Shown here: in pieces, positions 40,676-57,828 of the stretch | Numbering within the stretch: the stretch's first letter is position 1 | Layout of the letters: each line of letters opens with the position of its first letter | Source of the DNA: Chitinophaga pinensis | GTDB lineage: Bacteria > Bacteroidota > Bacteroidia > Chitinophagales > Chitinophagaceae | Assembly (NCBI GenBank): GCA_945872815.1 | Contig: CAMCAY010000003.1 | Span: forward strand, 33,535 to 97,534 | Reading direction: 5' to 3' | DNA: 64,000 nt | Made by a program: the position numbers and the translations under genes | Notes under the pieces: generated by a model | Database searches by the model: none | What the model was told of the DNA's origin: nothing | What the model saw: only the letters and a program-made list of their open reading frames with translations

Positions 40676-41353
40676 TTAAATTTCTTGTATGATTTTATGC
40701 TTAACGGCATACATAATAAGTCCAGTAGTAGTTTTGGAGCCGGTTTTAACTTTTAATCGATCACGAATGGCTTCAACTGTACGTGGGCTTAGATCTACTA
40801 GGTCGGCAATTTCTTTGGTACTTTTTTCTTCACACATCAATCTAAGGATAGTCGTTTCTTTGTCATTCAAATGGGCTTCCTGTGGAGTGATATGTTGTGG
40901 AGTAACCGGATTTTTTTGCTTTAAATTGCTAAGTAAAGCTTTATTGGTAAGAGAGTTGAAGTAATATTCCTGTTCGTAACAAGTTTTAATCGCTTCGTAA
41001 ATTATCTCACTGTCACTTGTTTTGGTGAGGTAGGAGTTAGCACCTAATTCCATTAGTTTAGTAATCATGCTGTTATCATCCACCATAGTTAGCATGATAA
41101 CTTTGGTATGGGGAGATATTTTTTTTATTTCTGGTAAAGTGGCAATGCCATCCATTATGGGCATTTGAATATCCAGTAAAATTACATCCACATCAATGTT
41201 CTTGAGGAGGTTCAATAGATGCATGCCATTGTCTGCTTCAGCGATTACTTTTATATCACTTTTTGTGCTGAGGGATGTCTTCACACCCGCTCTGTACAAT
41301 ACATGGTCATCTGCAATGATAACTTTGATGGGTTCTTTTTTTTCTTCGTTCAT
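40676..41353 (-). CDS. NarL/LuxR-type response regulator
   Basis: Receiver VIIADDHVLYRAG...DVILLDIQMPIMDG; HTH ILRLMCEEKSTKEIADLVDLSPRTVEAIRDRL. Confidence 0.95.
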   Translation of the reverse strand: MNEEKKEPIKVIIADDHVLYRAGVKTSLSTKSDIKVIAEADNGMHLLNLLKNIDVDVILLDIQMPIMDGIATLPEIKKISPHTKVIMLTMVDDNSMITKLMELGANSYLTKTSDSEIIYEAIKTCYEQEYYFNSLTNKALLSNLKQKNPVTPQHITPQEAHLNDKETTILRLMCEEKSTKEIADLVDLSPRTVEAIRDRLKVKTGSKTTTGLIMYAVKHKIIQEI

Positions 41354-41833: not shown

Positions 41834-42493
41834 ATGACATATAAAATTTCTTTGTTAATTTTTAATGTTCAATGCTTAATCATTTTAGGGGCATTACTTA
41901 GCTCATTTAGAATGTATTACATGTGCAAACCTAATTATATGAAATTATTTATTTTATATAGCATAGTAGCTAATATAGTTATGGTTCCGTTATTTTTTGG
42001 GACTAATAAAATTTTTCACATAGGGTTTGCAAATGGATTAAATAATTTATCAATAGTTTTCAATTATACTTTTTTAGTCTTTTTTATACTCTTTTCTATG
42101 CCAGATAGAAAAGGAATTACATTAATGATTATTGGATATGCAATATCAACTTGTATGATTTTTTTTCTTTTAATAAATAAAAATTTAAAAATTCCAATTC
42201 AATCTGCATTTGCATTAAATCATTTTGGTTTGATTTGTTATGGGACAGTTTATTTAATTAAAATATTTTTTAAAATCCCAGAAAAATTAATAACTGAAAT
42301 ACCTTCTTTTTGGGTTGTTATGGGGGTTTTAATTTGTTCAACTCTTAGTTTTCCATTTGTTTCAATTTTAGATTTCTTAAGACAAAATGGAATTGTTTAC
42401 AATAATTTATTGATATTGAATTTACCTAATATCGGATATAGTATAATGTATTTATTTTTTATTAAAGCATTCAAATGTTCAACAAGGAAGTAA
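41834..42493 (+). CDS. Multi-TM membrane protein, putative sensor partner of the downstream kinase
   Basis: About 7 hydrophobic segments; overlaps the kinase ORF by 19 nt. Confidence 0.75.
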   Translation: MTYKISLLIFNVQCLIILGALLSSFRMYYMCKPNYMKLFILYSIVANIVMVPLFFGTNKIFHIGFANGLNNLSIVFNYTFLVFFILFSMPDRKGITLMIIGYAISTCMIFFLLINKNLKIPIQSAFALNHFGLICYGTVYLIKIFFKIPEKLITEIPSFWVVMGVLICSTLSFPFVSILDFLRQNGIVYNNLLILNLPNIGYSIMYLFFIKAFKCSTRK

Positions 42494-43230
42494 ATAATAT
42501 TATCTTATTTGTTATTGCTATATCAATATTGATGATGCAGTTTGCTATTATTATTGCAGTAATAATTTTTCGTCATCAAAAAAAGAAAATATTATTTGAT
42601 AGAGGAATAGAAGATTTAAAAACAAAACATGAAAACAATTTATTAAAGTCTCAATTGCAGGTTCAAGAGCAAACTTTTCAGAACATTAGTCGAGAAGTGC
42701 ATGATAACATCGGACAAAAGCTAACACTAGCTAAACTTCATCTCAATACACTTGACATATCTGATTACAATATTAAAAAGAGCGTAAATGATGTGGTGCA
42801 GATTATTACAGAATCGCTAACCGATTTAAGAGATATCAGTCGTAGTTTGAGCTCTGAGATCATTATTAATAATGGGTTGATAAAAGCTCTTGAAAATGAG
42901 ATAAACCAGTTAAACAAAACCTGTCAGTATAATATCAAGTTAACAATTACCGGGGAGGTATTTTTCATGGACGGAGAAAAGGAACTGGTGATATTTCGAA
43001 TGATTCAGGAATCCCTCAGTAACATTATGAAACATGCAGAAGCAACAAAGGTTGACATTGCATTATTTTTTTCTGAAAACAATCTAATCATTGAAGTGTT
43101 GGATAACGGAAAAGGTTTTGATGTTTCGGCTAGTAAAAATGGAAATGGTCTCAATAACATTCGAAATAGGGCGCAATTCCTGGGAGGCTTGGTGCTTTTT
43201 GAATCCGAAAAAATAAAGGTGCCAATGTAA
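42475..43230 (+). CDS. NarL-type (HisKA_3/HATPase) sensor histidine kinase, apparently frameshifted at the 3' end
   Basis: REVHDNIGQKLTLAKLHLN, FRMIQESLSNIMKHAEA, VLDNGKGFD; -1 frame restores NKGANVKIEIPDLDKKINSTL to 43277. Confidence 0.88.
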   Translation: MFNKEVNNIILFVIAISILMMQFAIIIAVIIFRHQKKKILFDRGIEDLKTKHENNLLKSQLQVQEQTFQNISREVHDNIGQKLTLAKLHLNTLDISDYNIKKSVNDVVQIITESLTDLRDISRSLSSEIIINNGLIKALENEINQLNKTCQYNIKLTITGEVFFMDGEKELVIFRMIQESLSNIMKHAEATKVDIALFFSENNLIIEVLDNGKGFDVSASKNGNGLNNIRNRAQFLGGLVLFESEKIKVPM

Positions 43231-43327
43231 AAATAGAAATACCCGATTTGGATAAAAAAATCAATAGCACTTTATAAAATAAGAGAAATTTCTCTGTACT
43301 AATATTATTAATGTAAACAAACGAACT

Positions 43328-43987
43328 ATGAAAAATAAAAAATGTAAAATTCTGCTGGCAGATGACCATGTATTACTTAGAGATGCACTTTCTTCTTTAA
43401 TCAATTCTTTTGAAGAATTTGTAGTGATTAAATCAGTTGGAAATGGAAAAGAATTGATGAGCGCAATAAGTGAGGGTCATTTACCCGACTTGATTGTGTT
43501 GGATTTGAATATGCCTTTGATGGATGGATTTGAAACTGCCAAATCGTTATCTCAACATCATCCGGATTTGAATATTCTAATATTGACTATGTACGATTCA
43601 GAAATTGCATTAATCAGGTTGCTTCAAACCGGAGTGAAAGGTTTTTTAAAAAAAGATACTCATCCATCAGAATTAAGGTATGCATTGAAATCGGTTGCTG
43701 ATGGAGGATTTTTCTATTCTCATAATACTACGGGAAAATTGGCTAGTTTATTTCAAAAGAATTCAGATAATCATTCTTTTATTGAAAAGTCGATTTTAAC
43801 AGATGTAGAGATTGAATTTCTTAAACTTGCCAGCACGGATTTAACGTACAAGGAAATTGCATCTCAAATGAAAATCACCCCAAGGGCTATTGACGGATAC
43901 CGGGATACATTATTCGAAAAACTGGATGTTAAAAGCAGGGTAGGGTTAGCTATTTATGCAGTGAAAAATGGCATTGTGACATTTTAA
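43328..43987 (+). CDS. NarL/LuxR-type response regulator
   Basis: LLADDHVLLRDAL...LIVLDLNMPLMDG; HTH LASTDLTYKEIASQMKITPRAIDGYRDTL. Confidence 0.95.
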   Translation: MKNKKCKILLADDHVLLRDALSSLINSFEEFVVIKSVGNGKELMSAISEGHLPDLIVLDLNMPLMDGFETAKSLSQHHPDLNILILTMYDSEIALIRLLQTGVKGFLKKDTHPSELRYALKSVADGGFFYSHNTTGKLASLFQKNSDNHSFIEKSILTDVEIEFLKLASTDLTYKEIASQMKITPRAIDGYRDTLFEKLDVKSRVGLAIYAVKNGIVTF

Positions 43988-43997
43988 GCAATTCTTA

Positions 43998-44663
43998 TTA
44001 CTCAATTAATTTATTTCTCATGCCATACATGATAAGTCCGGCAATCGTTTTGGCATTTACCTTGGCTTTCATGTTTTGACGGATTGTTTCAATTGTACGG
44101 GGACTCAAAAATATAATCTTGGAAATTTCTTCGGTTGTATTGTCTTCTGCCAATAACTGCAATATTTTCAATTCTTTTTCATTAAAGTTTACGGGAGTAC
44201 TTGTTCCGTAGTGTTGCCTCACATTTTTTTTCTGCATCAGTCTTCCCATCACTGCATGGTTAACCAATTCATTAAAATAAAAATCATCATTCATGCAGGT
44301 TAAAATGGCCTCATAAATTTCTTCTGGATCAGTGGTTTTGGTTAGATAAGCATTGGCACCCATTTCCATCATTTTGCTAATCATTTGCTGATCATCGTAC
44401 ATGGTAAGAACAATGATTTTGATTTCTTCATATTCTTTTCGAATAATTTGAATCGCATTGATTCCGTCTATTTCAGGCATCCTGATATCCATCAATAAAA
44501 CATCCGGTTTTTTAATGGATATTTTATGCATCATGTCCTTTCCATCCTCTGCCTCCCATAACATTTTAAGATTTAGCTTCCCCGACAAGGCCATTTTTAT
44601 TCCGTCTCTGAAAATTTTATGATCGTCTGCAATGGCAATTTTTATTTGATTTTCCGATGTCAT
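43998..44663 (-). CDS. NarL/LuxR-type response regulator
   Basis: AIADDHKIFRDG...DVLLMDIRMPEIDG; likely start MTSENQIKIAIADDHK at 44663 rather than the ORF start at 44705. Confidence 0.94.
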   Translation of the reverse strand: MTSENQIKIAIADDHKIFRDGIKMALSGKLNLKMLWEAEDGKDMMHKISIKKPDVLLMDIRMPEIDGINAIQIIRKEYEEIKIIVLTMYDDQQMISKMMEMGANAYLTKTTDPEEIYEAILTCMNDDFYFNELVNHAVMGRLMQKKNVRQHYGTSTPVNFNEKELKILQLLAEDNTTEEISKIIFLSPRTIETIRQNMKAKVNAKTIAGLIMYGMRNKLIE

Positions 44664-44882
44664 ATGAGCGAATTGTAAATAAATACTTATTTTTTTATTT
44701 TTCAATCATTTGATAGTCAATTTAATATAATAAAAACTATCAGTATCCAGCTGTTTTTTATTTGATTTCTCGAAGACTGTTTACGAATGCCAATTTCAGC
44801 TGTGCAGCAAAAATAAACACAAATAACAACATCCTATTCACTCGTTTTTTACACAGGATTATCAACATTCTTGGCCAGATTC

Positions 44883-45202: not shown

Positions 45203-45946
45203 TTGAGAAAATACTTAACTCTGGAAATTCTATTAAATATTACTCTGATTTCTGAAATTATTCCTTTAATCTTTTGCTTATTTATTTCCTATAAAATAAA
45301 AACAAAAGTTTTAAAGGTTTTTTTTATTTATACCGTTTTTCAAGCGTTATTTAGTTTGCTTTGTTTTTTATTTGTTAATGTTTCCAAATCCTATAATAAT
45401 TATATTTTTACTTTAAGGCTACATTTAATAGTTGAATTCTTAATTATTTCTTACTATCTATTAAATGTCATAGATAACCAATTATTCAAAAAGACATCAT
45501 TTTATTTCCTCATTCCTTTTTTTATTATTTATAATATTATTGACTTCTTAATAAATGGAAATACGAGTTTTGGAAATATTCCAACTTTAATAGAGTTCAT
45601 TTTTTTCATTCTTGTGATTATTTATTTCTTCTATGAAAAAATGAAGTCTTCTTCATTATTTCCAATATATAACAGCATACATTTTTGGATTTCTGTTGGG
45701 CTGTTTGTTTATTTTACAGGTAACTTTTTTTACATTTTATTGGTAGAATATTCTACGTTAGCCAGTCCTGAGGTAAAGAATCAATTAAAGGTGATATACA
45801 GTGCGGTTACTATTACGAAAAATTTATTGTTGGGTTTGGCATTTTTGAGCTCTGAAAAAACCGATCAGGAGCTAAATGAAAATTTTTTAAATAATTCAAA
45901 GGATTACGATTCAGACAGTTCGTTCTATCAAAATAACTTGCAATAA
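45203..45946 (+). CDS. Multi-TM membrane protein, putative sensor partner of the downstream kinase
   Basis: About 7 TM segments; 2-nt gap to the downstream kinase; start codon uncertain. Confidence 0.75.
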   Translation: MRKYLTLEILLNITLISEIIPLIFCLFISYKIKTKVLKVFFIYTVFQALFSLLCFLFVNVSKSYNNYIFTLRLHLIVEFLIISYYLLNVIDNQLFKKTSFYFLIPFFIIYNIIDFLINGNTSFGNIPTLIEFIFFILVIIYFFYEKMKSSSLFPIYNSIHFWISVGLFVYFTGNFFYILLVEYSTLASPEVKNQLKVIYSAVTITKNLLLGLAFLSSEKTDQELNENFLNNSKDYDSDSSFYQNNLQ

Positions 45947-45948
45947 TC

Positions 45949-46770
45949 ATGTACTTACTACAGGCAGATTCTTCCGGTATTTCAAAGTTGATGTTCATAG
46001 GGACATTTGGTATGCTGACACTTGCAGTAGGTATTATTGTATTTGTGATTTTTCATCAACGGAAAATCATTCGTTATCAAATGCAGATGAAGCGATTTGA
46101 AGCGGAGAAACAACAGATTTTATTAAACGCATCCATCCGTTTTCAGGAAGAAGAGCGCCAGCGTATTGCAGCTGATCTTCATGATGATGCCGGCCCATTG
46201 TTGGCCACAGCCAGGTTGTATTTGAATGAAAATCTGGTAAATCAAGAAAAGCACCAACAATTGCAAAGCATTATCAGCGCTAAACAAATTATCGACGATG
46301 CTATTCTACTAATCAGAAATATCAGCCATAGTTTAATGCCTCCAACATTAAAGAATTTTGGTTTGGAAAGCGCCTCAACTGACCTTTTTCAAAAAATCAG
46401 CGGTAGCGGTGTTATCAATGCAAGTGCAAGATTTCATGATTACAAAGAACGTTTAAAGGTTGAACAGGAATTACTTGTTTTCAGAATCATTCAGGAGTTG
46501 GTCAATAATATTTTAAAACACAGCAGTGCCGGATTTATCCATCTTACACAAAATATAACAGGTGATAATTTATACCTTAGAATTCACCATGATGGAAAAG
46601 GAATTACGCAAGCAGAATTTGACAGGTTAAATCAAGGATCCCAAGGACTTGGATTGAAAAATATTGCCAGCAGAATTAACTTGTTGAAAGGGAATATATT
46701 TTTTGAAATAGATCCAAGTCAAACCTATTATAAAATCACCATTGAAATTCCCAGAGTAAATAAATTCTGA
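45949..46770 (+). CDS. NarL-type sensor histidine kinase
   Basis: AADLHDDAGPLLATARLYLNE, FRIIQELVNNILKHSSA, HHDGKGI, GLGLKNIASRINLLKG. Confidence 0.94.
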   Translation: MYLLQADSSGISKLMFIGTFGMLTLAVGIIVFVIFHQRKIIRYQMQMKRFEAEKQQILLNASIRFQEEERQRIAADLHDDAGPLLATARLYLNENLVNQEKHQQLQSIISAKQIIDDAILLIRNISHSLMPPTLKNFGLESASTDLFQKISGSGVINASARFHDYKERLKVEQELLVFRIIQELVNNILKHSSAGFIHLTQNITGDNLYLRIHHDGKGITQAEFDRLNQGSQGLGLKNIASRINLLKGNIFFEIDPSQTYYKITIEIPRVNKF

Positions 46771-46834
46771 TTTTTCCTTAGTTCATACTTTTTTTTCTAT
46801 TATCTTTCAACGCTGCTATTTTTATAAGAAATGT

Positions 46835-47494
46835 ATGAGTGAATCAAATCAAATAAAAGTTGCCATTGCAGATGATCATAAACTCTTTAGAAAAGGAGTG
46901 ATTTTATCCATGCGGCAATACACCAACATCAAGTTTGTGATGGAAGCTGATGACGGAGAAGATCTTTTATCTAAGATTCCTGAATTTAAACCAGATATTG
47001 TGTTGTGTGATTTAAAAATGCCCAAAAAAGATGGGATTGATTCCACTAAACTTATTACAAAAAATTTTCCGGGTACAAGGGTTATTATTTTGACCATGTA
47101 TGAAGATGAACGATTTGTTGGTCACTTGATGGATTGCGGGGCAGCAGGTTACCTGTTGAAAAATACCGATCCCGCCGAAATAAAAAAGGCCATTAGCGAT
47201 GTCATGCGAACAGGATTTTATTTAAATCCTGTTGTAAATAAAGTATTGATTAAAAAAAATTACTCCAAACAAAAATTCAATCCCAGTCTGACTTCTGAAA
47301 TTGTGTTAAGTGATAGGGAAAAAGAAGTACTGACCCTTGTTTGCATGGAGTTTACAGCTGCTGAAATTTCGGGTAAAATGGGTATCAGTGCTCGAACTGT
47401 GGAAGCAATAAAGGATCGATTGATGGAAAGATTCGGTGTTAAAAACTCAGTTGGACTTGTGTTTTACGCTATGAAAAATCAGTTAATTGATTAA
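46835..47494 (+). CDS. NarL/LuxR-type response regulator
   Basis: AIADDHKLFRKG...DIVLCDLKMPKKDG; HTH LVCMEFTAAEISGKMGISARTVEAIKDRL. Confidence 0.95.
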   Translation: MSESNQIKVAIADDHKLFRKGVILSMRQYTNIKFVMEADDGEDLLSKIPEFKPDIVLCDLKMPKKDGIDSTKLITKNFPGTRVIILTMYEDERFVGHLMDCGAAGYLLKNTDPAEIKKAISDVMRTGFYLNPVVNKVLIKKNYSKQKFNPSLTSEIVLSDREKEVLTLVCMEFTAAEISGKMGISARTVEAIKDRLMERFGVKNSVGLVFYAMKNQLID

Positions 47495-50974: not shown

Positions 50975-50982
50975 TACTTTTG
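50975..50982 (+). promoter_or_regulatory. Bacteroidota -7 element TACTTTTG
   Basis: Matches TAnnTTTG, 15 nt before the ATG at 50997. Confidence 0.6.
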
Positions 50983-50996
50983 CATAAATATATTTT

Positions 50997-51320
50997 ATGA
51001 GTAACAATTTCATCTCACTTAGTCAGGCACAAGAGTACACAAAAAAATATCGTGATAATCTTAGTGCAATGTTGACACAAGATTATCAAGGTGCTTTATC
51101 TTATTGTGAAACGTTTGATGCAGACGCTATCAGAACTTTGTTGAGTCAAGATGGTTGTGTAAGTTTCAGAGCCTATTACGGATTGAATGAAGACAATCAG
51201 GTATGTTCCATTTTTGTTGGTGTTGATGAAAACTTTGAAGACATTACTGATGGTGAAAAAAGCATAATATTAAATAATGGTAAAAAGTGCCCGAACTATT
51301 GTCCTAATAATTTGATGTAA
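50997..51320 (+). CDS. Small uncharacterised protein with Cys-Pro C-terminal tail (KKCPNYCPNN)
   Basis: Promoter just upstream; stop codon overlaps the start of the next gene (TAATG). Confidence 0.75.
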   Translation: MSNNFISLSQAQEYTKKYRDNLSAMLTQDYQGALSYCETFDADAIRTLLSQDGCVSFRAYYGLNEDNQVCSIFVGVDENFEDITDGEKSIILNNGKKCPNYCPNNLM

Positions 51321-51970
51321 TGAATTTATATGATATAGAAGACTTGTTTTCTATCTTTGAATTTATAATTGGGGTTCTATGTTATCATAGAATGCGAAGT
51401 GAGTACAAAATGCTATTTTTTAATACCATGGTATCGCTTTCTCACCTATTAATTTTTCGTTTCCTGTTGGAGTTTATGAATCCAGTCAGTATTAATCTTG
51501 AATGGTATTCAATTACTCTATTTTATGGAAGTTTTCAGCTGATGTTTTTATTGATTTCTAAAAATGCTAAAAATATTAATCGTAAAATTTCTTTTTTTAT
51601 AGGAGTATTAATTTTCGGGATAATAGTTGAGATAATTTGTGTTGGGATTGACAGCTATAGAATATCTTTAGTTGAAACATTTGTTGACTTCTATTTAATG
51701 ATTATTTCTATAAATGTGTTAGTTGAAAAAATGAAGAATATTCATTTAGAAAATAAAGTTATTCTATATCTCCTTCCTGCTCAAATTCAATTATTAATTA
51801 TCGTTATCATTTACAATATTACTTTGTTGTTTACTTTTCAACATAATTCTGACATTTGGGGAAACGTTTTGGGGTACACAATATTAATATCTTCTATTAT
51901 CAATTCAATATTCACATCCATTGCTTATTTATGGTTACACAAAAAGGAGAGATTTTTAGAGCTTTCATAG
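51320..51970 (+). CDS. Multi-TM membrane protein, putative sensor partner of the downstream kinase
   Basis: Several TM segments; overlaps the downstream kinase by 40 nt. Confidence 0.75.
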   Translation: MNLYDIEDLFSIFEFIIGVLCYHRMRSEYKMLFFNTMVSLSHLLIFRFLLEFMNPVSINLEWYSITLFYGSFQLMFLLISKNAKNINRKISFFIGVLIFGIIVEIICVGIDSYRISLVETFVDFYLMIISINVLVEKMKNIHLENKVILYLLPAQIQLLIIVIIYNITLLFTFQHNSDIWGNVLGYTILISSIINSIFTSIAYLWLHKKERFLELS

Positions 51971-52677
51971 GAATTTGTTTTTTTGTTTTGTCCATTACGA
52001 TTATTTTTTTTCGAATATTTTTATTGCAGCAGAAAAAATATCGGTTACTCCAACAAGAAAAACTACATGCAGAGATGAAGGCTTCTCAAATGGAAAGAGA
52101 TGAAATTGCATCTGAATTACACAATGATATTTTACCCAATCTTGCTACTATTCATTACTGGTTGTACCAAATTGAATTAACAGATAATAGGCTTTTGATG
52201 CAATCAATCAATCTAATCAATGAAACAATTGACAAATCCAGAGGTATTATTAAAAATGCTTCCCCTGTAAGTCTATATGGCTTGAGTTTTCAAACAGCTA
52301 TTATTCAATATATTCAATCAATCAAAGAAAAAAATGATTTAGCTATTTATTTTACTGAGTTAGAAGAGATTACCTGCTCTCCTGACCAGAACAATCATAC
52401 CTTTCGAATTCTTCAAGAAATAATTTTAAATACTGTTAAACATTCAAAAGCAAAAAAAATGGAAATTGAGATTTCGAAATCAAATGATCATTTACTTATA
52501 AGAACAGCAGATGATGGCGTTGGATTTGATATAACTTCTAAAAATAGCAGTGGTTTCGGATTATTAATTATTGAGAGTAAGGTAGATTACCTTAAAGGGG
52601 TATTAAAAATAAATGAAGAAAAAAATAATAATGGAACACAATTTAATATCAGAATTCCTTTGGATTCGTTTTGTTGA
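51931..52677 (+). CDS. NarL-type sensor histidine kinase
   Basis: ASELHNDILPNLATIHYWLYQ, FRILQEIILNTVKHSKA, TADDGVGFD; likely start MVTQKGEIFRAF at 51931. Confidence 0.9.
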   Translation: MVTQKGEIFRAFIGICFFVLSITIIFFRIFLLQQKKYRLLQQEKLHAEMKASQMERDEIASELHNDILPNLATIHYWLYQIELTDNRLLMQSINLINETIDKSRGIIKNASPVSLYGLSFQTAIIQYIQSIKEKNDLAIYFTELEEITCSPDQNNHTFRILQEIILNTVKHSKAKKMEIEISKSNDHLLIRTADDGVGFDITSKNSSGFGLLIIESKVDYLKGVLKINEEKNNNGTQFNIRIPLDSFC

Positions 52678-53181: not shown

Positions 53182-56100
53182 TTATTGAATCACTACTTTT
53201 CCTGACTTTAATCTAACTCCAGCAGCATCTGTCAATTCTACAAAATAAATACCCTTTCCAAATTTCGTCATGTCAATTTCTGCTTTGCCGAAAGGTTTAT
53301 TTATATTGAATGATTGATTGTAGACCCTTGATCCTTTAGAGTCATAAATGGTTACAGAACGTGGATTTGAAACTCCATTGTATTTATCGTTATACCTGAT
53401 TTGGAAAATTCCATTGTTAGGATTTGGATAAATAAACAGATTGTAATTCAAGGAGTCCTCAATAGTAACTACATTACTTACCGCACTTTTACATCCATGT
53501 CCATCAGTTACAGTTAATGTGTAATTTCCTAAACCATTAATGTCAACATTATGTGATGCTGATGATGCATTTGAAAGGATTGCGCCGTTATAATTCCATT
53601 GATAGGTTACTTCGGGTGTACTTGCATTTGTAACAGAAGAATTCAATGTAGTTTGCAAGCCCGGGTATAAACTCGTTAAGGGCGATGCTGCGATTGATAC
53701 AGACGGTGTCGAATAAACGGTAACAGGAACTGCAATTGGATCAGAACTGCAACCCGGTGTTTGAATTACCAAAGAATAATTGGTAGTTGCTGACGGAGAA
53801 GCATAGACGCTGTGTGTCAATGTTCCGTTATAACTGTTGCTAAGACTCGCATTATTATACAATCCTGTAGAAGGGCTCCAAATTCCTACACTTGCTGCCG
53901 ATGATGCATAAGTAATCTCAATGCTCCAATCGTCCAATGTATTGATTGGTTGTGTAGGAGAGCCGGCATCTGCCCAATAATCATATAATCCCAATGTCCA
54001 TGAGCCATTTGGCGTGCTGAATAAATCACTAAAGTTAGTTACATCAGGAATATATCCGTCAGGTCCTGTTTGAACGGGATCATTTGGTGTAGTTGGGAAA
54101 GAAGGATTGGTTGGGTCATTTGCAATTGCCATAGAAGGCAAGTAAGCATCAGCAGCATAAGTTGAAGAAAAAGGATCAGTTCCATTTCCAAATGAAGCTG
54201 TTGCATTAGAGGCGAAGATAGTATTGGTTAAACCTGTTGTAACGGCTGTACCGCCAGTTCCTGACAAAACATAAGCAAGGTTTAATACTTTCCCATTTGG
54301 AGCCTTTATTGTACCAATCAAATCTCCTACCCATGTATGGGTAGCATTAATCTTTACTTTAACCGAACTTATAACAGAACCGGCAGGAATTCCAGTAACA
54401 TTTATGCTATTATTTATTCCGGCTGTTGTTCCATCATCAGGAATTGTTGTGCCTAATGCACCTGATTCAAATGTAACAGTAGTAGGTAGTACAGGTACAT
54501 ACCCGCCTATTGATAACAATGCAACATTTCCTTTGCAAATTGCAGCGGAAGCAGGATCTGCAGAACCACTAATTTTTGAAACAGTTAATTCTACAGAGTC
54601 TGAGTAAACTGTGCTTGCACAATAGAAAATAGACACCCTGAATTGACTTCCATTCATAGCATCAGCTATTGGCTGAATCTTTAATGAATCAGTATTTGCA
54701 CCACTGATGGCACCACCATCAACCAGATCTGTCCAAGGCAAAGTTGAATTTGCTCTTGTTTGCCATTGATAAATAGGACTGAAACCCGTTGATTCAACAG
54801 TAAACATTGCATTGGAACCACACAAAGATGTAACGGCTAAAGGTTGTTGAGTGATTTGAGAAGGTACACAAGTCAATATTTCCACTTTATAATCTTCGGT
54901 TTCTCCATAAGTATAGCCTAAACAAGCGTCGTTGCCAGTTAATGCCAAATTAAATCTAACTCTTACCCTCATTCTTGTTTCACCTAATAAAGCATTAGCA
55001 GGCACATTAACAGCGCCATTGATAATTGCTCCATTTGCTGAACCAAGCGCTGTAAATTCAGAAGAATCAAATGATCCACTGTGATCATAATCTACCCATA
55101 CACCAACATATTCTGTACCACCAGGACCAACTTCTACTGACATTGGAATCCTACTTCCAATCGCCAATAAACCGGTACCAACAGTAGGGTCATTCACATA
55201 ATTTGAATAACCACCTGTTGTGCAATCCGTTGTATTATTCAATGAACTTCCCATTGTTACATTCAATATCACATCATCTACTCCGCAATTGGTTGTTGAT
55301 GGAGTACAATAACACACATTCCATGGGTTTGCGAAAACCTCCACCGGAACTGATGTAACACTATTACCAGAACATGTTACTATTAATTGATACCATGTTG
55401 TGTCTGATAAAATGGTATTTAGTCTTGAAGCATTTGCACCAGCAATGTCTGAATAGGTAATTCCATCAGATGATGACTGCCATTGGAAAGTAAGACCGGA
55501 ATACATATTTGTGTTGTTAGAAATGGACAAAGTAAACATTGTGCCAGGACAAACATTCGTATCAGATGAAACCGTATTTCCTGCATCAGGTGTGCCTGAA
55601 CATGGCGTAGGAGCCATTATCATAACATTATAATCTTCTGTTTCTCCAAAAGTGTATCCAATACAAGCGGATGTGCCTACTAATGGAGTTAGCCATCTTA
55701 ATCTTACCCTCATTCTTGTTAATCCAGTTTGAGCATCTGATGGAACATCAATGTTTCCATTTAACACAACACCATTTCCACTACCAAGAGATGTAAATTC
55801 TGTGCTGTCAAATAAACCGTTGTGGTTATAATCAATCCAAGCACCTACATATTCAGTACCACCTGTACCTACTGTTACGCTGATTGGGTTTGAACTGTTT
55901 GTATATAACATGGCAGTTGCTACCGAGTCATTAGTAGTATAATCTGTATACCCGTTTGTACCGCAGTCTGAGTTGTTGTTAATTGCATCAATCGCGACAT
56001 TTGTAATGATATCATCGTCAGTACAATTTGAACTGTCAGGAATACAATAACATAGATTCCAAGGATTTGCTGTAATCATTACAGGCGTTGATGTAGCACT

Positions 56101-57828
56101 GTTTCCTGAACAAGTTGCCACTAATTGATACCAGGAAGTTTCATTTAAAATTGCAGTAAGAGCATCACTGTTTGCATTTGCTATATCAGTATAATTAATA
56201 CCATCAGAAGATGACTGCCATTGATACGAGATTTCCGAAGCAGTACTGTTTAAATCGTTAGAAATAGATAAATTGAATTCTATGCCCGGACATACCGATG
56301 AAACCGATGAAACCGTATTTCCTGGATCGGGTGTTCCAGTGCATGGAGGAGGAATATTGATGTTTATTCTGTAATCTTCAGTTTCACCAAATGTATAGCC
56401 AATGCACGCAGCAGTATCTGTTAATGCAGTGCTATATCTCAATCTTACTCTCATTCGCGTAACACCGGCCAATGCATTTGTCGGGGTATTTATAAATCCT
56501 CTGATGGTATCGCCATTGGCATTTCCTAATGAAGTGAATTCATAAGAATCAAAAACTCCATTTTGATTATAGTCTATCCAAACTGAAACATGTTCAGTTC
56601 CACCTGCTCCTACTGCAACACTCATTGGCGTTCTGGCTCCGGCCGTTAATGTTGCAGTACCAACAGAAGTGTCGTTTGTGTAATCAGTGTAACCACTGCT
56701 TGAACAATCAGATGTATTATTGATTGTATCAATGGTAACATTTAAAATCACATCGTCCAAAGTACAATCTGTAGCCGGCGGTATACAATAACAGCTGGTC
56801 GGCTGGTTCATAGAAACTTCAGTGGCTGTTGATGTATCTGAAAGGGAGGAATTTGAACAAGTAGCGATTAATCGATACCAAGTGGCTGCTGATTGAATCG
56901 CTAAATAAGAGGCCCCATTAGCGCCGCTGATATTGGTATAAGTAACATTGTCAGATGAAGATTGCCATTGATAGCTAACACCAGAACCTGCAACTGAATT
57001 AGAAATAGACAAATCAAATCCAATGCCTTCACAAACACTCAATCCAGAAGAAATGGTATTTCCCAACTCTGGAATCCCTGAACATGGAGTAGTTGCATAA
57101 TTAATTACAAAAGAAAAATCCTGAGGATCTGTACTTGTAGCATCAACCACATCAGACCAGGTATTTGCAGTAAGATCATGTTGTTTTGCATTATTACCGG
57201 TTTGTGTTGTAGTGCCAACAACGGTACTTGGAGGTGTATAATTGCTTGTCAATGCAGATGTCACACCTGTTTGCCATTCCATCCAATAAGAACCTGGATT
57301 TAATGTTACAGGAACCAACGCCTCCAACTTCCATATTTTCCTTGTGTTTCCGGGCGTTGCATTAAAAATCCTATACATGCCCGCAGAAGAACTTGATGAA
57401 AGTCTGTTGGTAGTTAAATCTCCAAATATTGGAGTTGGTGTCCCAACAGAAGGATTAGTATTGAAAATTTGCAATCTTAATTCTTGAAATGGAGAAGTTG
57501 TGCCGGTATATCCTGTAGAATAGGCATAAACTGTTATTTTTGTAACAGACCATGGGGTACCTGCAGGCACAGTAAAATTGTCCGCAATTGAAAATCCCCC
57601 TGTTATACTAGAAGAAAATCCAGCATTGCCATTACCGACTTGCACCTCACTCCATGTAAAACCTGCAGGAGCTGCTGTACCATCGCTAGATGTGGCACCC
57701 GTGCTTAGATTTCCATTTAAATACTGTTGAGCACTAACATAAACAGAACACAAAGAACATAGCATAACAACAGCAAATGTCCTTAAAGTCATTCTCCTGA
57801 TTTCCGAAAGAGTAAATTTTGATTGCAT
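53182..57828 (-). CDS. Giant secreted protein with GEVED repeats, P/homoB-like domain and T9SS type A sorting domain
   Basis: Three GEVED modules (YVGVWVDYDHSGSFDSSEF...GETEDYKVEI); P-domain-like VISSVKVKINATHTWVGDLIGTIKAPNGK; C-terminus NLFIYPNPNNGIFQIRY...GKGIYFVELTDAAGVRLKSGKVVIQ. Confidence 0.93.
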   Translation of the reverse strand: MQSKFTLSEIRRMTLRTFAVVMLCSLCSVYVSAQQYLNGNLSTGATSSDGTAAPAGFTWSEVQVGNGNAGFSSSITGGFSIADNFTVPAGTPWSVTKITVYAYSTGYTGTTSPFQELRLQIFNTNPSVGTPTPIFGDLTTNRLSSSSSAGMYRIFNATPGNTRKIWKLEALVPVTLNPGSYWMEWQTGVTSALTSNYTPPSTVVGTTTQTGNNAKQHDLTANTWSDVVDATSTDPQDFSFVINYATTPCSGIPELGNTISSGLSVCEGIGFDLSISNSVAGSGVSYQWQSSSDNVTYTNISGANGASYLAIQSAATWYRLIATCSNSSLSDTSTATEVSMNQPTSCYCIPPATDCTLDDVILNVTIDTINNTSDCSSSGYTDYTNDTSVGTATLTAGARTPMSVAVGAGGTEHVSVWIDYNQNGVFDSYEFTSLGNANGDTIRGFINTPTNALAGVTRMRVRLRYSTALTDTAACIGYTFGETEDYRININIPPPCTGTPDPGNTVSSVSSVCPGIEFNLSISNDLNSTASEISYQWQSSSDGINYTDIANANSDALTAILNETSWYQLVATCSGNSATSTPVMITANPWNLCYCIPDSSNCTDDDIITNVAIDAINNNSDCGTNGYTDYTTNDSVATAMLYTNSSNPISVTVGTGGTEYVGAWIDYNHNGLFDSTEFTSLGSGNGVVLNGNIDVPSDAQTGLTRMRVRLRWLTPLVGTSACIGYTFGETEDYNVMIMAPTPCSGTPDAGNTVSSDTNVCPGTMFTLSISNNTNMYSGLTFQWQSSSDGITYSDIAGANASRLNTILSDTTWYQLIVTCSGNSVTSVPVEVFANPWNVCYCTPSTTNCGVDDVILNVTMGSSLNNTTDCTTGGYSNYVNDPTVGTGLLAIGSRIPMSVEVGPGGTEYVGVWVDYDHSGSFDSSEFTALGSANGAIINGAVNVPANALLGETRMRVRVRFNLALTGNDACLGYTYGETEDYKVEILTCVPSQITQQPLAVTSLCGSNAMFTVESTGFSPIYQWQTRANSTLPWTDLVDGGAISGANTDSLKIQPIADAMNGSQFRVSIFYCASTVYSDSVELTVSKISGSADPASAAICKGNVALLSIGGYVPVLPTTVTFESGALGTTIPDDGTTAGINNSINVTGIPAGSVISSVKVKINATHTWVGDLIGTIKAPNGKVLNLAYVLSGTGGTAVTTGLTNTIFASNATASFGNGTDPFSSTYAADAYLPSMAIANDPTNPSFPTTPNDPVQTGPDGYIPDVTNFSDLFSTPNGSWTLGLYDYWADAGSPTQPINTLDDWSIEITYASSAASVGIWSPSTGLYNNASLSNSYNGTLTHSVYASPSATTNYSLVIQTPGCSSDPIAVPVTVYSTPSVSIAASPLTSLYPGLQTTLNSSVTNASTPEVTYQWNYNGAILSNASSASHNVDINGLGNYTLTVTDGHGCKSAVSNVVTIEDSLNYNLFIYPNPNNGIFQIRYNDKYNGVSNPRSVTIYDSKGSRVYNQSFNINKPFGKAEIDMTKFGKGIYFVELTDAAGVRLKSGKVVIQ
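54880..57095 (-). repeat. Three tandem Ig-like + GEVED coding units, about 735-745 bp period
   Basis: PCSGIPELGNTISSG / PCTGTPDPGNTVSSV / PCSGTPDAGNTVSSD each followed by the same domain order; boundaries approximate. Confidence 0.85.

Follow-up and report, generated by a model that had tools for sequence, protein, structure and literature searches.

The window analysed here is a 64,000-nt stretch of a Chitinophaga pinensis contig (CAMCAY010000003.1). Three of its genes, coding for a small protein (P1), a membrane protein (P2) and a histidine kinase, lie head to tail on the plus strand (Table 1). The open reading frames given in the preliminary description are confirmed in their coordinates, as are the TAATG junction between P1 and P2 and the 40-nt overlap between P2 and the kinase gene. 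The gene downstream is convergent, and thus no response regulator follows the kinase of the window.

Table 1. Positions in the window of the P1-P2-kinase locus, its sequence features and the two orphan regulator genes.
Feature	Position	Strand	Remarks
P1, 107 aa	50997..51320	+	no signal peptide; core RAYYGL..D..VCSIFVGVDE, tail KKCPNYCPNN
CPxxC(P) tail of P1, constant or almost so (C98, P99, C102, P103)	51288..51305	+	alignment A3
TAATG junction	51318..51322	+	last A of the P1 TAA is the first base of the P2 ATG
P2, 216-aa membrane protein	51320..51970	+	predicted 7TM bundle, N-out/C-in; no family match
P2/kinase gene overlap, 40 nt	51931..51970	+	kinase ATG spans the Leu-Trp codons of P2 (TTA TGG)
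Histidine kinase, 248 aa	51931..52677	+	one N-terminal TM, no sensor domain; H-box ELHND (62), N-box NTVKH (167), G-boxes
Orphan NarL-type regulators	40676-41353 and 43998-44705	-	no kinase next to them; the genome has no other orphans of this type

The preliminary description gives P1 its own TACTTTTG promoter. The case for it is weak, and a dedicated promoter is rejected here. Across the window, TAnnTTTG shows no enrichment and is in fact rarer (78 copies) than expected from shuffles (103). The copy at 50975 has no TTTG partner at -33, and the motif is not conserved at this site in the sister genomes G047, G062 and G026. Upstream of P1 genes in general, TAnnTTTG is seen in 21%, versus 12% in shuffles.

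P1 is a constrained protein-coding gene. Its product shares 77% of amino acids with the closest relative (G047), at which distance synonymous sites are saturated, and dN/dS against G062 is 0.08. In the same comparison with G047, the identity of the fast-evolving P2 is 45%. P1 is the best-conserved member of the system among close relatives, which argues against a strain-specific pheromone. In the 34-row alignment A3, the residues I6, R58, Y60, Y61, G62, D82, C98, P99 and C102 are invariant. The protein of the window shows all the features by which the family is defined: the RxYxG...VGVD core, D82, the C-terminal CPxxC and P2 as the next gene. Alignment A1 was too divergent for the pattern scan of genome contigs, and its subset A2 was used. 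Two tandem P1 domains are seen within single ORFs in L119 (3581-4333) and L191 (3989-4720).

The AF2 model of P1, based on 34 sequences, is an ordered soluble alpha+beta mini-domain (pLDDT 88). No fold in the PDB matches this model, thioredoxin folds included. Pfam, NCBIfam, PHROGs, PADLOC and the sequences of solved structures contain no convincing match to the family. The earlier characterization of P1 as a soluble-looking small protein without assigned family agrees with both the model and the library searches.

Of 197 genomes searched as relatives with the single sequence, 28 contained P1. With a 29-sequence profile it was found in 41 of 393 Bacteroidota genomes, and with a broader 60-row profile in 114 of 396 genomes of the class, corresponding to 65 of 198 genera. 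Carriers include Terrimonas, Niabella, Lacibacter, Parafilimonas, Flaviaesturariibacter, Sediminibacterium and Chitinophaga. Searches of viral contigs and of plasmids found no P1. A typical Chitinophagaceae cassette is present in a record titled as a Williamsia sp. (Actinomycetota) MAG (L075), which is probably mislabelled or a mixed bin.

The neighbourhood of P1 is conserved. Among 112 distinct P1 genes, at least 106 have as their next gene one for a P2-like, hydrophobic protein of 170-300 aa. The order P1, P2, histidine kinase and NarL-type response regulator is seen in 83 of the 112; nine have P1-P2-kinase without a regulator, and six show tandem or P2-repeat forms. The remaining surroundings are mostly contig ends or variants. 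Most intact cases among 39 additional loci, taken from other families, show the same order, even with very divergent P1s. These tallies bear out two proposals of the preliminary description, namely a split receptor kinase at the locus, with the multi-TM gene separate from the kinase, and a small protein tied to such receptors and kinases in Bacteroidota. Both observations that would have refuted the preliminary description were looked for, namely a lack of conserved association with multi-TM proteins and variable tail cysteines; the association proved conserved, and the cysteines mostly so. The term three-gene operon needs modification: the three genes of the window are real, but most relatives add a NarL-type response regulator, making it a four-gene system. 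Searches of the open literature gave no description of a P1-P2-kinase operon.

Two observations concern the margins of the cassette. The P2 that follows P1 in L007 (1310-1525) and L149 (G103) seems truncated and no kinase is next to it; the cassette may be decaying, or the assembly may be in error. In many genomes of a Flavobacterium-like clade (L128, L132, L137, L139-L143), a gene for a 419-426-aa secreted protein follows the regulator; it could be a target, or its position simple synteny.

A NarL-type regulator beside the kinase is absent from the window and from the sister genomes G026, G062, G065, G068 and G072. Because all of them are without it, the lack of an adjacent regulator is a property of the lineage. 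The source genome contains seven NarL-type regulators, of which five adjoin kinases and two are orphans, both in the window. The two orphans were considered as the possible missing partner of the window kinase. The regulator tree does not tie them to the main cassette regulators; they group together and near the 46835-type regulator.

The window also contains two sets of a membrane protein, a short one-TM kinase and a NarL regulator, at 41834-43987 and 45203-47494, both without P1. Their membrane proteins align weakly with the P2 of the window (15-16% identity). No hidden P1-like ORF was found upstream of these two sets. At 53182-57828, the minus strand codes for a 1548-aa repetitive secreted protein whose C-terminal segment, judged by eye, is of the type IX sorting-domain kind.

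The AF2 model of P2 has seven TM helices (pLDDT 82), where helices 3 and 4 are fused into one long helix and are counted as two. Lys and Arg are frequent in loops 1-2, 3-4, 5-6 and the C-terminus and rare elsewhere, which points to an N-out/C-in topology. Almost all top hits in Foldseek are 7TM receptors or rhodopsins, with E-values from 0.05 upward, and this resemblance of the model is taken as one of shape, not homology. Like P1, P2 has no convincing match in protein-family libraries or among the sequences of solved structures, and the P2 set has no Pfam match. A retinal receptor is rejected, as TM7 of the P2 in the window contains no Lys and only 3 of 27 P2s have any Lys in TM7.

The kinase of the window is recognized by HATPase_c (E 1.4e-10) and has the boxes ELHND, NTVKH and DDGVGFD. 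HisKA_3 scores in a relative (L061), not in this kinase, and the nearest solved structures are VraS and DesK. Thus, among the features of HisKA_3/NarL two-component systems, the H-box His and HATPase_c are present in the window, and the adjacent cognate NarL-type regulator is not. The 40-nt overlap of P2 with the kinase gene is seen in 26 cassettes, and one of 43 nt in 11. In relatives, a Trp or Cys codon at the end of P2 is likewise used for the ATG of the kinase ('LW(I/M)P', 'LCIP'). To judge from its conservation, the overlap suggests coupled translation; it also explains part of the conserved C-terminus of P2.

P1 and P2 are seen together in front of different kinases. Tandem P1-P2 pairs precede a single kinase in L097 and L103. 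In L100 and L117, the kinases behind P1-P2 are of PAS-HisKA type instead of HisKA_3, and L100 contains P1 and three P2-like genes. In L113 (5068-7122), a hybrid kinase with PAS, HisKA, HATPase and receiver domains is behind the pair. The tandem arrangement and the variety of kinase types make P1 and P2 look like a portable input module.

Pairwise distances in 83 complete cassettes were compared. The correlations are 0.75 for kinase-regulator, 0.59 for P2-kinase, 0.53 for P1-P2, 0.29 for P1-kinase and 0.16 for P1-regulator. The P1-P2 correlation remains at 0.48 when both kinase and regulator are taken into account, and that of P1 and the kinase is about 0 given P2. Within 30 Chitinophagaceae cassettes, P1-P2 falls to r 0.12, a value reached by 28 of 200 permutations. 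The P1-P2 correlation is weak evidence, because it is lost within this family, and may reflect clade structure.

Because P1 is encoded directly before a 7TM protein, a sensor-less kinase and usually a response regulator across much of Bacteroidota, it is probably an input part of a widespread signalling system. P1, P2, a sensor-less membrane-anchored histidine kinase and a NarL-type regulator would be the four proteins of a conserved Bacteroidota system, and the window would contain a lineage-specific form. P1 would bind P2, and the two would constitute the input module. As a co-sensor or regulatory subunit, P1 would presumably set the state of the 7TM bundle, and P2 would pass this state to the kinase through helix contacts. 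The kinase would then phosphorylate a NarL-type regulator, its putative partner, encoded elsewhere in the genome. On balance, we consider it rather likely that the locus is such a lineage-specific four-component system, with P1 and P2 as the input module and the regulator not adjacent. The wider reading is more tentative and somewhat improbable in this full form: P1 and P2 may make up a receptor module of Bacteroidota that is portable and so far undescribed, whose 7TM receptor drives interchangeable histidine kinases and is gated by a dedicated protein subunit, contact or sensing being the task of the CPxxC tail.

The localisation of P1 varies. By a simple hydropathy rule applied to 155 P1s, 30 (about 19%) have an N-terminal signal or anchor. 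They are distributed over many families, and about ten have a clear lipobox, for example 'FLFLGCSKD' (L163), 'VLSGCKPD' (L111) and 'LLMACGQN' (L218). The tail is kept in 26 of the 30 P1s with an export signal; the P1 of the window is without a signal. In L137 (4622-5380) and L141 (2494-3243), a lipoprotein with two P1-like domains is encoded between P2 and the kinase. It coexists with a signal-less P1 before P2, whose tail (TRPSPPF) is without both cysteines. The export signal of Bacteroidetes lipoproteins is C-X-K-(D/E)2 (PMC5080379). Residues after the lipobox of some P1s (C-Q-K-E, C-S-K-D) are partly similar to it, with only one acidic residue.

Several points count against the input-module explanation, among them the loss of the P1-P2 correlation within Chitinophagaceae. 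The main difficulty is that P1s with and without an export signal cannot both touch P2 from one side of the membrane. Besides, P1 is much more conserved than P2, a pattern that would fit a P1 with additional partners better than a dedicated pair.

The strongest of the other explanations is that P1 responds to metal or redox state, its CPxxCP tail binding copper or another thiophilic metal, or switching between dithiol and disulfide, and the state being passed to P2 and the kinase. The proposed G-x-[RK]CPxxCP tail does recur in alignments of Bacteroidota proteins. C98, P99 and C102 do not vary across the 34 rows, and CPxxC is kept in 91 of 112 homologues and, as described above, in most exported ones. 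This conservation is not universal. About ten homologues, mostly of the Flavobacterium-like clade, retain only the first Cys (CPPxxDPxSPLN), nine have no Cys in the tail, and their operons are intact. Accordingly the family as a whole does not depend on the thiols; what seems to matter, by comparison of homologues, is the tail segment. A third conserved ligand is absent, since residue 70 can be C, H, R, V or T, and the fold search of the PDB gave no match, to thioredoxin folds or others. A metal- or redox-sensing tail, as put forward in the preliminary description, is unlikely to be the function of the family.

Less probable still is a cytosolic modulator that acts on the kinase or the regulator independently of P2, like the small inhibitors Sda and KipI. 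It would suit the P1 of the window and the roughly 80% of homologues without an export signal. Against it, about 20% are exported, several with lipoboxes, and their neighbours are unchanged; the kinase class varies behind P1-P2; and no correlation of P1 and kinase distances is left when P2 is taken into account.

The preliminary description also considered a dedicated signal or ligand for a split-receptor kinase. The neighbour tallies support the tie of P1 to P2 and the kinase, but not the ligand, as P1 is more conserved than the receptor and export signals occur in only around one-fifth. In a quorum-sensing reading, P1 would be processed into a secreted signal, either a peptide or a protein, with P2 as receptor as in agr or comQXPA. 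This would agree with the order of signal gene, receptor, kinase and NarL regulator, with the short conserved C-terminal tail and with the export signals. Yet it is the least probable of these explanations and is rejected as the main one: P1 is conserved more than any other component, with no hypervariable peptide seen, and P2 has no conserved Cys/His pair expected of a processing protease. Moreover, P1 is modelled as a folded conserved core, not a leader, and genes for an exporter or a protease are not a recurrent part of the operon. The role of P1 as an input subunit is favoured, with a ligand as one sub-case.

The input protein and the 7TM component are not recognized by the protein-family libraries searched, in a system present in more than a quarter of the sampled genomes of the class. 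Should P1 and P2 indeed form the input module, the known inputs of two-component systems would gain a split 7TM receptor whose co-sensor is a protein. The module would also offer a direct genetic handle on what many sensor-less kinases respond to.

Several known systems share parts with this one. P1 and the Sco copper chaperones have the letters CPxxCP in common, which we take to be those of the Sco copper-binding loop. P1 differs in having no Pfam hit or PDB fold match, and its motif is at the extreme C-terminus and is not universal; the thioredoxin fold with CxxxC and a distal His, the mark of Sco membership, was not found by the Pfam and PDB fold searches. In peptide-pheromone systems the pattern of conservation is reversed. 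The hypervariable signal peptide of agr and comQXPA that co-varies with its receptor has no counterpart, the P1 tail being conserved across families, and no processing protease or modifying enzyme recurs in the cassettes. Microbial rhodopsins and GPCRs are 7TM proteins with the N-out/C-in topology predicted for P2 (Foldseek TM-score 0.65 to an Exiguobacterium rhodopsin), but there is no significant E-value, sequence match or conserved TM7 lysine.

DesK-DesR and VraS, with HisKA_3-type kinases, have the catalytic core closest to that of the window kinase among solved structures, and the kinases of relatives have a NarL-type partner. In DesK, however, the membrane sensor is within the same chain, whereas the multi-TM part at this locus is a separate gene.

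Other analogies are with accessory-protein systems. In the UhpC-UhpB-UhpA system, which senses hexose phosphates in E. coli, UhpC is a 12-TM homologue of transporters, and UhpB has a large TM region of its own. A separate multi-TM sensor protein, a HisKA_3-type kinase and a NarL-type regulator are common to Uhp and the P1-P2 system. Uhp has no P1-like protein, and P2, with seven predicted TM helices, matches no transporter family in Pfam, in contrast to the MFS transporter-homologue sensor. In HptA-HptS-HptR of S. aureus, HptA is a substrate-binding lipoprotein encoded beside the kinase and the regulator. The binding lipoprotein is a third component, and exported P1 variants resemble this layout. 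Hpt has no 7TM protein, and P1 is a mini-domain of about 100 aa with no known fold match, mostly without an export signal. By analogy, the P1-P2 system appears to work like these accessory-protein two-component systems while being a member of neither.
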